Part shown: piece by piece, positions 15,725-64,000 of the stretch
Numbering within the stretch: the first letter of the stretch is position 1
Layout: the number at the start of each line of letters is the position of its first letter
Position numbers and translations under genes: made by a program
Notes under the pieces: generated by a model
Database searches by the model: none
Told to the model about the DNA's origin: nothing
The model's input: the letters and a program-made list of their open reading frames with translations, nothing else
From: Nanobdellota archaeon
GTDB lineage: Archaea > Nanobdellota > Nanobdellia > Pacearchaeales > GW2011-AR1
DNA length: 64,000 nucleotides
NCBI GenBank assembly: GCA_021799535.1
Contig: JAJZAH010000003.1
Location: 1-64,000, forward strand
Direction: 5' to 3'

Positions 15725-15742
15725 TACCGATTTAAATCGGTA
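15725..15742. promoter_or_regulatory. Perfect 18-bp palindrome TACCGATTTAAATCGGTA
   Basis: Upstream of the 15328..15681 minus-strand gene; near-identical element precedes the HTH_10 gene at 16394. Confidence 0.8.
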
Positions 15743-16390
15743 TCAATATCTGCCTGTGAAGAACTCGCTTATCTTTTTCTCAGCATATTTGAGATGCTGC
15801 TGGAAAGTAGAATATGAAATCCCTGATAATTTGGCAAGCTGTTTTATATCTATCCTCTTTGGATATTCATAATACCCTTTTTTCACAGCAAGTTCATAAG
15901 CACTTCTTTGTTTTTCTGTAAGGTTTGGCTGGACACCGAGGATAGAAACGCTTTTTATGCTCTCCTGGCGGAAATGAAGGATCTTGTAACTGTAATTTTT
16001 CCCGATGAACTTCAGAAGATCTGAAAGGTCCTCTTTTCCCCAACTTCCTAAATGATAAGTATAAATCCCAGAATGGTCTATCTTGACAGGAGAAAGGTAA
16101 ATAAATGATGGGCTGTAAAAAGGTGCGAATTTTTTGTCCTCTTTTATCAAAAGGTTGAAGAAATTTCCATTTGATTCCATCTTAAGAAAATATTTGCTTC
16201 TTTTCAGAAATCTTATAATACTTTCCTCATCTTTTTCATAACCAGTGACATTTCCAACGAGATTTATGAAAAGCCCTTTTGCTTTTTCATGTCTGGACAC
16301 AGGATAACCAGTTATGGTAAGGTTGAACCTCTTAGCGAGACTTCCAAAGAAAATATCTTCTCCCTTAAGGATGAATTTCAGGACCCACAT
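15743..16390 (-). CDS. HTH_10 (bacterio-opsin activator-like) transcription regulator A
   Basis: LTEKQRSAYELAVKKGYYEYPKRIDIKQLAKLSGISYSTFQQHLKYAEKKI; start MWVLKFILKGED. Confidence 0.88.
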   Translation of the reverse strand: MWVLKFILKGEDIFFGSLAKRFNLTITGYPVSRHEKAKGLFINLVGNVTGYEKDEESIIRFLKRSKYFLKMESNGNFFNLLIKEDKKFAPFYSPSFIYLSPVKIDHSGIYTYHLGSWGKEDLSDLLKFIGKNYSYKILHFRQESIKSVSILGVQPNLTEKQRSAYELAVKKGYYEYPKRIDIKQLAKLSGISYSTFQQHLKYAEKKISEFFTGRY

Positions 16391-16393
16391 GCA

Positions 16394-16411
16394 TACCAAT
16401 ATTAATCGGTA
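16394..16411. promoter_or_regulatory. Imperfect palindrome TACCAATATTAATCGGTA (autoregulatory operator candidate)
   Basis: Lies between a TATA-like TTTTTATATA (minus strand) and the HTH_10-A ATG; matches 15725..15742. Confidence 0.75.
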
Positions 16412-57611: not shown

Positions 57612-57693
57612 GGATTTATTATAAAGTTGTAACTTATTAAAACTATCCTAGATAAAATAACAAATCATTAAAAACCTATCCCATAACCTTTTT

Positions 57694-57714
57694 ATATGAA
57701 CCACATTTCATATG
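57694..57714. promoter_or_regulatory. Operator copy ATATGAACC-ACATTT-CATATG
   Basis: Upstream of ferredoxin gene; nearly identical sequence at 59163. Confidence 0.85.
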
Positions 57715-57726
57715 TTCAGGAATAAT

Positions 57727-58005: not shown

Positions 58006-58389
58006 TTAAAATTTTACTTCATAAATCCTATGCCATAAGTAATACTTACTGGAACCAAAACTTAAATTTTTATTCAAAGTTTCATCTTCAGAAGGCTTGC
58101 ACTTAGATAATCTTCCAATTCTCCCGATGAGTAGTTCAAGACTTTTGCCTTTTTTGAAGAATCCTTTTTTAAACTCTTCCCCAGTAATCTTCTCCCCCTT
58201 GCCAAGATATTTAGTAACATATTCAATCAGATGATTTGTCCCAAGTCCGTAGGCTGCAATATTATTTCCATCTTGATCCTCAATCAACAAATGTAGCTCA
58301 ATAGGCACAAAGCATTTTGTATACAATAGCTCACTGTTTATAATTGTCCCCGTTATCCTTTTTTTGATTAAGCCGTTTTTTAATTCCAT
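58006..58389 (-). CDS. Hypothetical protein, predicted target of HTH_10-B
   Basis: Intact ORF with operator and AATTTAAATT TATA-like element upstream. Confidence 0.5.
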   Translation of the reverse strand: MELKNGLIKKRITGTIINSELLYTKCFVPIELHLLIEDQDGNNIAAYGLGTNHLIEYVTKYLGKGEKITGEEFKKGFFKKGKSLELLIGRIGRLSKCKPSEDETLNKNLSFGSSKYYLWHRIYEVKF

Positions 58390-58423
58390 ACATACAAGAA
58401 AAAGATTTAGAATTTAAATTTTC

Positions 58424-58440
58424 ACCCTTCTATGGAAGGT
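58424..58440. promoter_or_regulatory. Operator copy (minus strand ACCTTCCATAGAAGGGT)
   Basis: 16/17 identity to the element at 59103..59119. Confidence 0.75.
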
Positions 58441-59102
58441 TATTTAGATATAAGTTTGGGAAGCAGCTTGAACTCAGCTTTTCTCAAATTTTCCCTGAAA
58501 GTCTGCTTGGAGACTTTTGCAATCTTAGAGAGCTTGTCAAGATTGGTCCTTCTCGGAAAACCATAATACCCGTTCTCAAACGCGAGTTTTATCGCTTCTT
58601 CCTGCCTTTTGGGCATTTTGGGAAGGAGCCTAGTCAGATAGACGTCCTCAAGGTCATTTTGCGAAAATCTCAATATCTCAAAATATGTCGTGTTCTTACC
58701 TTCTTTCATTGTCTTGATTAGATTCTCAAGGGGTTTCCTGTCCCAGCAAGCGACTTCTATCACTTCAAAACCATCACTACTCAAATATGCAGGAGACGGG
58801 TAAATGAAAAGAGAGTTATAAATGGATTCATAAATCTTAAACTCTTTTTTGTTCTTTGCCAAAGTGATTATTGTACTTCCATGAACTTCACATTTCACAA
58901 CCTGCTTATGGTCTTTCATGTATCTTGCATATTTTTGGATATCTTTTTCATGGCCATTCAATTGCTGGATTGCAGAAGTATAGATATAATCCCCCTTAAT
59001 GTAATGGCCAAGGTAATAAAAGAAAACAGAAAGTTTCAATTTAGAGAGTTTTGGGGCATAAATGCAGTCGTCATGCTTGTATTTGAATTTCAGATACCAC
59101 AT
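58440..59102 (-). CDS. HTH_10 family regulator B
   Basis: MWYLKFKYKHDDC start; RQEEAIKLAFENGYYGFPRRTNLDKLSKIAKVSKQTFRENLRKAEFKLLPKLI. Confidence 0.88.
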   Translation of the reverse strand: MWYLKFKYKHDDCIYAPKLSKLKLSVFFYYLGHYIKGDYIYTSAIQQLNGHEKDIQKYARYMKDHKQVVKCEVHGSTIITLAKNKKEFKIYESIYNSLFIYPSPAYLSSDGFEVIEVACWDRKPLENLIKTMKEGKNTTYFEILRFSQNDLEDVYLTRLLPKMPKRQEEAIKLAFENGYYGFPRRTNLDKLSKIAKVSKQTFRENLRKAEFKLLPKLISK

Positions 59103-59119
59103 ACCTTTCATAGAAGGGT
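59103..59119. promoter_or_regulatory. Operator copy ACCTTTCATAGAAGGGT at HTH_10-B start
   Basis: Adjacent to the ATG and downstream of TATA-like CTTAAATAAA (minus strand). Confidence 0.75.
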
Positions 59120-59162
59120 TCTTTATTTAAGGGTTTCTATACCCATCTCCCGCAACATTTTT

Positions 59163-59183
59163 ATATGAACCACATTTCATATG
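59163..59183. promoter_or_regulatory. Operator copy ATATGAACC-ACATTT-CATATG
   Basis: Upstream of sufB; overlaps TTTTTATATG TATA-like element. Confidence 0.85.
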
Positions 59184-59202
59184 TTCAAGGAGAACATACA
59201 AC

Positions 59203-60591
59203 ATGGCAGACAGAATACAACAGGCATATACGATGAGAAACCCGGAGAACCTAAAGTTCAAGAGTCCGGAAGGGTTGACTGAAGAGCTTGTCCGGCGAAT
59301 ATCAAAAGATAAAAATGAACCAGAATGGATGCTCCAGAGAAGACTGAAATCTCTTGAAATATTTAATTCAAAACCAATTCCAGCATGGGGACCAAGCCTG
59401 AAAGATCTCAATCTTGACAAAATACATTATTATCTGCGACCTAACGCGAAGAACTCAAAATCATGGAAAGAAGTCCCAAAAGATATCTATGGAACTTTTG
59501 AAAAGTTGGGAATTCCTGAGGCTGAAAGGAAAGCTTTGGGGGGAGTTGGCGCTCAATATGAAAGCGAAACAATCTATCACAATCTCAAAAAGGATCTTGA
59601 GAAAAAGGGAGTAGTCTTCACTGATTGTGATACGGGTCTCAAAGAGTACGAAGAACTCTTTAAAAGATATTTCATGACTACCTGCGTATCTCCCAACCTC
59701 CATAAATTCGCGGCCCTTCATGCCGCTGTATGGAGCGGTGGAACTTTCATTTATGTTCCGAAAAACGTGAAAGTCGAGATCCCCCTTCAGGCATATTTCA
59801 GGATGAACGCGCAAAAAGGTGGGCAATTCGAGCATACTCTTATAATTGCGGATGAAGGTTCAGAGATACATTACATAGAAGGGTGCAGCGCTCCGCAGTA
59901 TCAGGAAAGCTCACTTCACGCAGGATGCGTAGAGATACACGTTTTAAAAAACGCCCGCGTTAGGTATTCATCTATTGAGAATTGGTCAAAAAATACTTAC
60001 AATCTTAACACTAAGAGAGCAGTAGTTGAAGAAAATGGAATAATAGAATGGGTGAATGGAAATTTAGGAAGTCACACAACAATGCTTTATCCCTGCAGTG
60101 TCTTAAAAGGAAAAAACGCGAAGTCCGATTATATAGGAATAGCTTACGCCGGACGCGGGCAATATCAGGACACAGGATGCAAAGTCTATCACTTGGAAAA
60201 GAACACTTCATCAACAGTATTATCAAAGGGTGTGAGCGTTGACGGCGGAGTAACTTCTTACAGAGGTCTCGTTCAAATAAATTCGGGAGCAGTAAACTCA
60301 AAATCAAGCGTGCGCTGCGATGGGCTCATGCTGGACAATAAGAGCAAAGCTATGACCTTGCCAGCAATGGATGTGCATGAAAGCCAAGTAGAGGTTTCGC
60401 ATGAAGCAGTTGTCGGAAAAATAGGTGAGGAGGATTTGTTCTATCTGATGAGCAGGGGCTTATCTGAAATGGAGGCAACAAAGTTGATTGTTTCAGGTTT
60501 CATAGAACCGGTCGTGAAAGAGCTTCCGCTTGAATACGCAGTCGAATTAAATAAGCTAATTGAACTCGAGATAGAAAACAGCATATGCTAA
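59203..60591 (+). CDS. sufB: Fe-S cluster assembly protein SufB
   Basis: GGTFIYVPKNVKVEIPLQAYFRMNAQKGGQFEHTLIIADEGSEIHYIEGCSAPQY; EASHEAxVGKI-like VSHEAVVGKIGEEDLFYLMSRGLSEMEATKLIVSGFIEPV. Confidence 0.96.
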   Translation: MADRIQQAYTMRNPENLKFKSPEGLTEELVRRISKDKNEPEWMLQRRLKSLEIFNSKPIPAWGPSLKDLNLDKIHYYLRPNAKNSKSWKEVPKDIYGTFEKLGIPEAERKALGGVGAQYESETIYHNLKKDLEKKGVVFTDCDTGLKEYEELFKRYFMTTCVSPNLHKFAALHAAVWSGGTFIYVPKNVKVEIPLQAYFRMNAQKGGQFEHTLIIADEGSEIHYIEGCSAPQYQESSLHAGCVEIHVLKNARVRYSSIENWSKNTYNLNTKRAVVEENGIIEWVNGNLGSHTTMLYPCSVLKGKNAKSDYIGIAYAGRGQYQDTGCKVYHLEKNTSSTVLSKGVSVDGGVTSYRGLVQINSGAVNSKSSVRCDGLMLDNKSKAMTLPAMDVHESQVEVSHEAVVGKIGEEDLFYLMSRGLSEMEATKLIVSGFIEPVVKELPLEYAVELNKLIELEIENSIC

Positions 60592-62044: not shown

Positions 62045-62075
62045 TTCTTGGAAAATTATTTAAAATACAAAGCAT

Positions 62076-62085
62076 ACATGTTCGC
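62076..62085. promoter_or_regulatory. ACATGTTCGC element overlapping HTH_10-C start (ACATG-TTCG-CATGT)
   Basis: Same 10-mer at 62756..62765. Confidence 0.5.
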
Positions 62086-62736
62086 ATGTGGGTTGCAAAA
62101 CTTAAATGCCGACATGATTGCCTCATAGGAAACAGATGCAAAAAATATGGCATAGAGGCAAGTGCATATGAACTTGGAAAAACTAAACAGGGGAATGTTC
62201 TTATCTCTAATTCCGTTCACCAACTTTTCGGAGAAGAAAAACAGATAAAGAAGTTCGTTGAAGACCTGAAAAAAGACAAAGATGTCATACATACAGAAAT
62301 GAAAGGAGATATGTTATTCTTAGTTGAAAAGAAGAAAGGAACCCCTGTCAAGGAATATTCAAGAAACATATTTTTCGCATCTCCGGTCACAGTCGACAAA
62401 AGAGGATATGAGTATTGGGAAATCGGGTCATTCGACAGGAATGAGTTAAATAAATTCATAAATAAGTTAAACAAGATTTGTTATGAACTTGATGTAATCT
62501 TTATCAAAGAGACACAAGCCCAGAATATATTCTTCCCGAAGATACTTCCAAATCTAACTGGTCTCCAAAAGAAGGCAATTGATTTGGCAATAAAGGAAGG
62601 ATATTATCATGTCCCAAAGAAGATTTCTTTAAGACAACTCGCAAAACACATGGGGATTGCTCTTTCGACTTATCAGAGGCATCTTCAAGTAGCCGAAGCA
62701 AAACTCATCCCAAATCTTTCTTTTGACCTGAGATAG
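62086..62736 (+). CDS. HTH_10 family regulator C
   Basis: MWVAKLKCRHDC start; LTGLQKKAIDLAIKEGYYHVPKKISLRQLAKHMGIALSTYQRHLQVAEAKLIP. Confidence 0.88.
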   Translation: MWVAKLKCRHDCLIGNRCKKYGIEASAYELGKTKQGNVLISNSVHQLFGEEKQIKKFVEDLKKDKDVIHTEMKGDMLFLVEKKKGTPVKEYSRNIFFASPVTVDKRGYEYWEIGSFDRNELNKFINKLNKICYELDVIFIKETQAQNIFFPKILPNLTGLQKKAIDLAIKEGYYHVPKKISLRQLAKHMGIALSTYQRHLQVAEAKLIPNLSFDLR

Positions 62737-62755
62737 TCCCCTTCTTTGGTGCGGG

Positions 62756-62765
62756 ACATGTTCGC
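62756..62765. promoter_or_regulatory. ACATGTTCGC element upstream of EgtD-like gene
   Basis: Exact repeat of 62076..62085. Confidence 0.5.
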
Positions 62766-62786
62766 TAGAAGGAATAAGTAGTTATT

Positions 62787-62802: not shown

Positions 62803-63720
62803 ATGACAAATAGACTTCCGAAAATTATAAGGATTGGGAAAGACCCCACAACCGCAGAACTGAAAAATTCATTGAGAAAAAATGAGATTCCATTAAAATT
62901 CTGCTATATGGGACAAGGGGCGAAATGCTGGAACAATCTGAGAGAAAGCAAAGAGTATAAATTAGGGGACAAATGGGTTTACATCCTAGAAAAGACGTTA
63001 CCTCAGGTTAGGAAGAGATTAAACGGAGAAGATTACAATTTGATTCATGTTGGTCCCGGGAACGGTATTGAGATCCCCTCATTTCTTGGAAGCATTGGAT
63101 TAAATGGTAAAGCGAGATACTGCGGAATTGATGTAAGCAGAGACATGCTTGAACTGGCAATAGAGTCCAACAGGGACACCTTAAATCAGAAGAATTCAGT
63201 TTGGTACCAGTCCGATGTTGAATCAAAAGGAAATCTTGAAAGGATAGCTAAGGGCATTAGAAGAAAGTACTCGGAGAGGAGTCTTATTCTATTAACAGAT
63301 GAAGGAACTCTCCTATCAAATAAGAGTATCTTCAAGGAACTCTACAGAGCCCTCGGTAAAGGGGATTATGCCTTAATCACGATTGAAGGGGACAACCCGG
63401 AAAAAAGAGGGGAAATTTTGCAAACTTATTCTCTTCCTCAAACATTAAAGATACTATCAGTAGGCCTTAGGAAGGCAGGATATGATTATAATCGTGGAAG
63501 CTTTTCCTTTTCTTTCAATGAAAGAAGATCACGAGTGGAAGTTTATTTCAATACCCATGTGGGGAATAAGCTTCTTTGCCTAGCCTCATATAAACCAAAA
63601 AAGGAGGAATTTTTCAATGAATTGAAATCCTTTGGATTTGATATCCCTTATTTCAAATTCCATGAGGAAGCCTGGGCTTTCTCAGTTCTCTTGGAGAAAA
63701 GAGACAAAAATGTTCAGTGA
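62803..63720 (+). CDS. EgtD-like (histidine-methyltransferase-type) SAM-dependent methyltransferase
   Basis: YNLIHVGPGNGIEIPSFLGSI; YCGIDVSRDMLELAIE; NERRSRVEVYF; C-terminal EEAWAFSVLLEKR. Confidence 0.65.
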   Translation: MTNRLPKIIRIGKDPTTAELKNSLRKNEIPLKFCYMGQGAKCWNNLRESKEYKLGDKWVYILEKTLPQVRKRLNGEDYNLIHVGPGNGIEIPSFLGSIGLNGKARYCGIDVSRDMLELAIESNRDTLNQKNSVWYQSDVESKGNLERIAKGIRRKYSERSLILLTDEGTLLSNKSIFKELYRALGKGDYALITIEGDNPEKRGEILQTYSLPQTLKILSVGLRKAGYDYNRGSFSFSFNERRSRVEVYFNTHVGNKLLCLASYKPKKEEFFNELKSFGFDIPYFKFHEEAWAFSVLLEKRDKNVQ

Positions 63721-64000
63721 ATTTTATCCATCTGCTGACAAGGAAGTTAGAAGTATCTTAAAAAATGTGAAATCTCCATCGGAAGAAAAAGTTAAAGACA
63801 TTCTTGAGAAAAGCAAAACTGAAAGTTTGGATTTACCTGAAATCGCTGAACTGTTGGAAACTAGGGGCGATCAAAGTTTTGAGATGATGAGGGATTTTAC
63901 ACTTGAAAATTTCAGAGGTCCAGAAGGCAATGAACTGAGGAATATCTCTCCAATTTACCTCTCAAGTCATTGCATCGATAAATGTGGTTACTGTCAATTC
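63710..64000 (+). CDS. Radical SAM protein, ThiH/HydG/BioB-like, truncated by window edge
   Basis: ISPIYLSSHCIDKCGYCQF contains the CxxxCxxC motif; frame open to base 64000. Confidence 0.8.
   Translation, partial: MFSEFYPSADKEVRSILKNVKSPSEEKVKDILEKSKTESLDLPEIAELLETRGDQSFEMMRDFTLENFRGPEGNELRNISPIYLSSHCIDKCGYCQF

Follow-up and report, generated by a model that had tools for sequence, protein, structure and literature searches.

The three HTH_10 regulators encoded in the window (the whole 64,000-bp stretch of DNA that we analyzed), here called A, B, and C, each carry two copies of a specific operator, one at the regulator's own promoter and one at the promoter of the next gene. Across relatives, these paired sites occupy two distinct, fixed positions, the operator sequence follows the recognition helix of its regulator, and the neighboring target gene turns over. 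Taking these observations together, we consider it likely that A, B, and C are local autoregulated activators, each of which would turn itself down and one neighbor up as a compact unit with an exchangeable target. Within Nanoarchaeota, they would form part of a family of local regulators that join an HTH_10 domain to an N-terminal half made of two ferredoxin-like folds.

The locus of regulator B comprises the following features, given in the direction of transcription:

59122-59130, minus strand: TATA-like element of B, TTAAATAAA, assigned by its sequence, with a place that agrees with the family
59103-59119, minus strand: B operator copy 1, ACCCTTCTATGAAAGGT, predicted autorepression site, at -17 to -1 of the putatively leaderless gene
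58440-59102, minus strand: HTH_10 regulator B, 220 aa, beginning MWYLKFKYKHDDC, start ATGTGG at 59102
58424-58440, minus strand: B operator copy 2, ACCTTCCATAGAAGGGT, predicted activation site, sharing one base (the last) with B's stop codon and abutting the BRE
58412-58422, minus strand: BRE/TATA of B's target, AAAATTTAAAT, assigned from the family profile (AAA at dyad +10 to +12, TATA at +15 to +21)
58006-58389, minus strand: target of B, a 127-aa orphan protein with its ATG ~43 bp from the operator dyad

The two 17-mers that the initial annotation had reported at B were located at 59103-59119 and 58424-58440 as claimed. They are identical at 16 of 17 positions and face opposite ways with respect to transcription, an arrangement that the near-palindromic site allows. 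The first base of copy 2 is the last A of B's stop codon, and the copy lies directly 5′ of GAAAATTTAAAT, the BRE/TATA of the target. Copy 1 had been described as touching B's ATG downstream of the TATA box. Its position is as described; however, the ATG at 59111 lies inside the operator and is probably not B's start, which we would place at the ATGTGG at 59102. All 62 aligned relatives of B have M1 and W2, giving ATGTGG as the family start, although the invariance of W2 is partly a selection effect, as starts were set at MW wherever MW was present. Independent backing comes from the TATA-to-ATGTGG spacing, which is ~25 bp across the family. At B, the start at 59102 falls ~24 bp past the TATA center and one base beyond operator copy 1, so this copy sits between TATA and start, outside the coding sequence.

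A Pfam search matched B to PF04967 (HTH_10; E=9.5e-15, 54.6 bits against a cut-off of 23.1). This was the sole domain found at E<=1; the N-terminal half matched no Pfam family. In the AlphaFold model of B (pLDDT 92.7), two ferredoxin-like alpha/beta folds lie N-terminal to the HTH. A PDB fold search with this model returned no convincing global match (TM <= 0.25), and a PDB sequence search with B returned no match. B's target had no match in Pfam, PADLOC, or PHROGs, and it was present in only 1 of 284 genomes searched, its own.

Near the B locus, an identical 25-mer, TATATGAACCACATTTCATATGTTC, occurs on the plus strand at 57693-57717 and 59162-59186, at or after the TATA of a ferredoxin-like gene (57712) and a sufB-like gene (59203). 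These are its only two copies in the genome within 3 mismatches, and it is probably an operator common to Fe-S genes, for a different regulator.

A genome-wide search found exactly three HTH_10 genes in this genome (746,762 bp, 87% complete), all within the 64-kb window, scoring 73.2 (A), 57.1 (B), and 59 bits (C). The initial annotation had stated that the other two HTH_10 genes show the same architecture with different sequences, and both A and C bore this out:

16394-16410, minus strand: A operator copy 1, ACCGATTAATATTGGTA, between TATA and ATGTGG
15743-16390, minus strand: HTH_10 regulator A
15725-15742, minus strand: A operator copy 2, ACCGATTTAAATCGGTA, just 3′ of A's stop codon
15328-15681, minus strand: target of A, a 117-aa protein without a family
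62072-62085, plus strand: C operator copy 1, GCATACATGTTCGC, touching ATGTGG
62086-62736, plus strand: HTH_10 regulator C, start ATGTGG at 62086
62754-62767, plus strand: C operator copy 2, GGACATGTTCGCTA, dyad 44.5 bp from the target ATG
62803-63720, plus strand: target of C, a methyltransferase of the histidine-specific type (PF10017, E=3.3e-11)

The start of A's target lies ~52 bp from the dyad, against a family norm of ~43. The C operator has the same sequence, ACATGTTCGC, at both sites, and C's target scores below the NCBIfam EgtD cut-off. A putative CxxxCxxC-type radical SAM gene lies 3′ of this EgtD-like methyltransferase (62803-64000) and runs off the window; the same gene order was noted at L073:1763-2956. 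The methyltransferase and the radical SAM gene possibly form a two-enzyme step.

The operators of A, B, and C are confined to the regulator's own promoter and that of its neighbor, as expected of regulators with one private target, where "private" means that few other copies exist in this genome. The B operator pattern, CCTTYYATRRAAGG, had only two mismatch-free sites in the 746,762-bp genome, both at the B locus; a third match, with 2 mismatches, was at 59868, inside the sufB coding sequence. The A operator had two sites within 2 mismatches, compared with 0 for a control pattern. Two exact copies of the C operator were present, and the C-like near-matches at G000:C1:111089 and C5:12010, both of which were inspected, were outside promoter position. 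Each regulator therefore has a specific pair with few other genomic copies, as the initial annotation had proposed in calling the operator private, but privacy in the sense of selected insulation did not hold up. Operators within one genome showed no excess difference from each other compared with permuted sets (0.565 vs. 0.556), and three within-genome operator pairs were 86% alike, so cross-talk is possible. There is no sign of selected insulation or of a mutually orthogonal regulator set.

Relatives of B were found in 44 of 185 genomes of the GTDB family, a patchy distribution covering about a quarter of genomes. The initial annotation had proposed checking whether each HTH_10 gene in related genomes is followed by one target gene with a matching private repeat. 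This holds for most relatives, and the paired repeats are conserved rather than absent. We matched the promoter stretch (-25 to +6) of each regulator against the 150 bp 3′ of the stop codon, using its own locus or swapped loci. In the family set of 62 intact genes, own pairs scored 9.82, compared with 7.40 for swapped pairs; the observed mean was not reached in any of 20,000 permutations. The result was repeated in an independent set of 56 genes, almost all of which come from different families in the phylum (9.43 vs. 7.13, again with 0 of 20,000 permutations). A control window at -110 to -80 gave no pairing signal (8,946 of 20,000 permutations reached the observed value). The paired look is thus extremely improbable as a product of shared ancestry or AT-rich low complexity: the operators have AT-rich centers, and regulators that are related have related operators, but the swaps were made among the same loci and still reached the observed mean in neither set, while the control window was without signal.

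Scanning all 118 loci with a model built for the target-side element classified 55 as paired, 20 as having the target site only, 12 as having a site upstream on the opposite strand, and 31 as having none detected, although part of these 31 represents contig ends or sites overlapping the stop codon. By inspection, at least 7 of the 12 opposite-strand loci (L009, L014, L015, L016, L112, L115, and L139) are real divergent cases, in which a single palindrome between the regulator and the divergent gene reads op-AAA-TATA toward the latter. The self-operator went undetected in about half of loci. Judging from these sequences, the target-side site is what stays constant in this layout, and a self-site is common yet optional. 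The genomes sampled are incomplete drafts, and some loci were removed by hand.

Several variants and absences were seen within this sample. The MW..KF/R N..H subgroup (L014, L015, L016, L112, L115, and L139) is transcribed divergently from its target; a single palindrome, e.g., CCTGCATATGCAGG, stands in activation position toward the divergent gene, and several of these divergent-gene targets resemble B12 radical SAM proteins. At L159, a tandem pair of operator copies precedes one target, compared with the usual single copy. Some family members are interrupted by a stop codon or divided between two frames (L018, with TAG, and L021; also L060/L054 and others), which suggests decay or assembly errors. 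A scan of genome contigs with B alone as the query recovered 3 loci, including one in Nanoarchaeota archaeon isolate CSMAG_2060. The viral contigs searched held no relative of the regulator family and thus gave no sign of a viral origin. We found no paper on this regulator family in the open-access literature.

In the 55 loci with a good pair, aligned on the dyad, the two copies stand at distinct fixed positions, in line with the earlier claim that they are placed differently at the two promoters. The upstream dyad has a median position of -12.5 from the ATG (interquartile range -13.5 to -8.5), 14 bp past the TATA center. The target-side half-sites contain CG in most loci, with C at -6 and G at +5 of the dyad in 92% each, and the dyad is followed by AAA at +10, +11, and +12 (92%, 98%, and 82%), a TATA-like element at +15 to +21, and the target ATG at about +43 to +45. 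The distance from the target-side dyad to the regulator stop, by contrast, varies from 1.5 to 46.5, with a median of 9.5. The fixed spacing to the target's AAA, TATA, and ATG, together with the variable spacing to the stop, indicates that the target-side copy is a promoter element. Reading it instead as a 3′ element of the regulator mRNA, either a terminator or an RNA hairpin, is very improbable. Such an element would sit close to the stop, as the second copy does in most loci (within ~10-20 bp); however, the second copy matches the regulator's own operator, A runs rather than T runs follow it, and in divergent loci the site is on the regulator's other side.

As a promoter element, the operator resembles known archaeal sites at both of its positions. 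In archaea, a regulator whose site lies downstream of the promoter blocks RNA polymerase, and one sitting immediately upstream of BRE/TATA activates by recruiting TBP or TFB; TFB-RF1 brings in TFB in this way, from a palindrome next to a weak BRE, on its upstream side (PMC5937170). In the 55 paired loci, the self-site lies between TATA and the regulator's own start, where archaeal autorepressors bind (a leaderless start being assumed), and the target-side palindrome lies at a fixed distance just 5′ of BRE/TATA, as with TFB-RF1-type activators. Because the two positions match those of known repressors and activators, we infer the signs of action from them and predict that the regulator turns itself down and its neighbor up. 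The initial annotation had predicted the same combination; the positions agree with it, but autorepression would not be universal, given the 20 of 118 loci with the target site only, the at least 7 divergent ones with a single site, and the 31 with none detected.

Under this local autoregulated activator model, each regulator would bind its palindrome of ~14-17 bp as a dimer at two places. At its own promoter, protein bound between TATA and the leaderless start would block the loading of RNA polymerase and lower the regulator's own level. At the next gene, protein bound 5′ of BRE/TATA at a rigid spacing would assist TFB/TBP in binding a weaker promoter, turning the gene on. The N-terminal half would meet an effector or signal, presumably triggering the switch.

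A repressor acting at both promoters, which would hinder TFB beside the BRE and the polymerase after TATA until an effector lifted both blocks, is unlikely but carries more weight than the mRNA element. Promoter-near palindromes often serve repressors, and the target-side site abuts the BRE, where a bulky dimer could hinder TFB. Yet, across 55 loci the site keeps one fixed spacing that leaves the AAA (BRE) and TATA uncovered, and the literature places archaeal activators upstream of BRE/TATA. The TATA boxes of targets are also poorer matches to the consensus than those of regulators (Wilcoxon p=5e-7, by a crude consensus count), as expected for a promoter that needs help. Moreover, at least 7 divergent loci keep the op-AAA-TATA order toward the target.

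The link between regulator and operator was also visible in the recognition helix. Across the 55 loci, recognition-helix similarity predicted operator similarity beyond N-domain similarity (partial rank r 0.284, 0 of 2,000 permutations); the pair lists for this, the residue-base, and the geometry analyses were hand-cleaned, with 8-10 loci omitted in which the best match was not the dyad. The partial effect of the N-domain was 0.25, so relatedness matters for this link. Helix residue 9 (in B, the E of AKVSKQTFRENL) tracks the base before CG in the operator: Glu was found with CCG in 10 of 11 loci, and Ala with A, G, or T before CG, never C, in 15 of 15. On the tree, 3 independent contrasts were supported; all point the expected way, but so small a number cannot reach significance.

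The targets, for each of which we chose the longest open reading frame found within 260 bp, were far less constant than the regulators. The 100 putative targets fell into 76 similarity clusters, the majority without a family. Recognized targets were polyprenyl synthases, FcoT/ScoD-like enzymes, short-chain dehydrogenases, a PLP enzyme, B12 radical SAM enzymes, a NUDIX protein, and C's methyltransferase, to which inspection by eye added substrate-binding lipoproteins and a symporter. FcoT/ScoD-like enzymes (PF10862) were recurrent archaeal targets (L030, L054, L060, L066, and L067). Ten targets searched against PADLOC and PHROGs gave no match, leaving a role as defense or phage cargo unsupported. 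A role for the regulators in long biosynthetic clusters was ruled out, as larger neighborhoods mostly held a single target followed by unrelated genes.

Turnover was evident even among close relatives. The relatives that share B's operator type (L005, L006, L007, L126, L134, L152, and L008/L040) have targets of 336, 163, 190, 139, 221, 267, and 148 aa, with no recognizable likeness. Regulator pairs at least 50% identical had related targets in only 3 of 57 cases by BLAST or phmmer, which may be an undercount if faster divergence hides some true relatives, and regulators up to 84% identical had targets without recognizable similarity. Because regulators this similar have unalike targets, the molecule that a regulator senses is unlikely to be made by its target. 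This weighs against a quorum-sensing-like pair in which the target enzyme makes or changes the molecule sensed by the N-terminal half, a reading we regard as quite unlikely. The recognizable targets do include enzymes suited to it (prenyl synthases, FcoT/ScoD-like enzymes, short-chain dehydrogenases, PLP and B12 radical SAM enzymes, and C's methyltransferase); however, most targets have no family, and some are membrane or substrate-binding proteins.

In 29 close regulator pairs (at least 55% identical) with unrelated targets, operator DNA identity was ~84% and dropped to background from dyad +20, just past TATA; on the upstream side, identity faded before the TATA box. As far as DNA comparison can tell, the conserved unit is TATA-operator-regulator-operator-BRE/TATA, and the gene behind it changes freely. 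A regulator with its two operators looks like a portable one-target switch. More tentatively, and with somewhat less than even confidence, the unit could be a portable expression cassette whose 3′ end has repeatedly taken up new genes in Nanoarchaeota, often orphans, with regulator and operator persisting as one controlled gene is swapped for another. If so, new genes would have in the cassette a regulated landing platform.

HTH_10 regulators of haloarchaea include NarO. The Bat-type haloarchaeal regulators have the same DNA-binding domain family, HTH_10 (PF04967), and Bat is a transcription activator (PMC5847659). Unlike the Bat type, B showed no REC, PAS, GAF, or BAT (PF15915) domain in the Pfam search, its N-terminal half being modeled as two ferredoxin-like folds, and the family described here has one private neighbor as a target plus a paired self-operator. 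The arrangement resembles that of TFB-RF1 of Pyrococcus furiosus in its palindrome just 5′ of a weak BRE/TATA, its local target, and its activator role, here predicted (PMC5937170). TFB-RF1 differs, however, in auto-activating its own operon and in acting on a second target far away; in the family described here, the self-site occupies the place of a repressor, and the target forms a transcription unit of its own. LysR-type local regulators of bacteria repress themselves and activate a neighbor, usually a divergent one with one shared site. The functional logic predicted here is similar, but the protein family is unrelated (a Pfam search found no LysR HTH or substrate domain in B), and the loci are mostly tandem with two separate sites of opposite roles, only a minority being divergent with one site. 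As in LacI-family local regulators (PMC2978694), the operators are private and residue-base rules can be read; by contrast, the regulators here are archaeal HTH_10 proteins with activator geometry, and targets turn over while regulator and operator persist. The local autoregulated activator layout is of a known kind and the system extends phylum-wide, but the exchange of targets is unusual.

Almost nothing is known about gene regulation in uncultured, small-genome archaea. For dozens of regulators, the operator pair gives a predicted binding site, target, and sign of action from sequence alone, and together these loci form a large natural data set for the residue-to-base recognition code of HTH_10. 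The compact regulator-operator pairs are also potential ready-made archaeal switches. Finally, the exchange of targets behind conserved units raises the question of how new and orphan genes gain regulated promoters.
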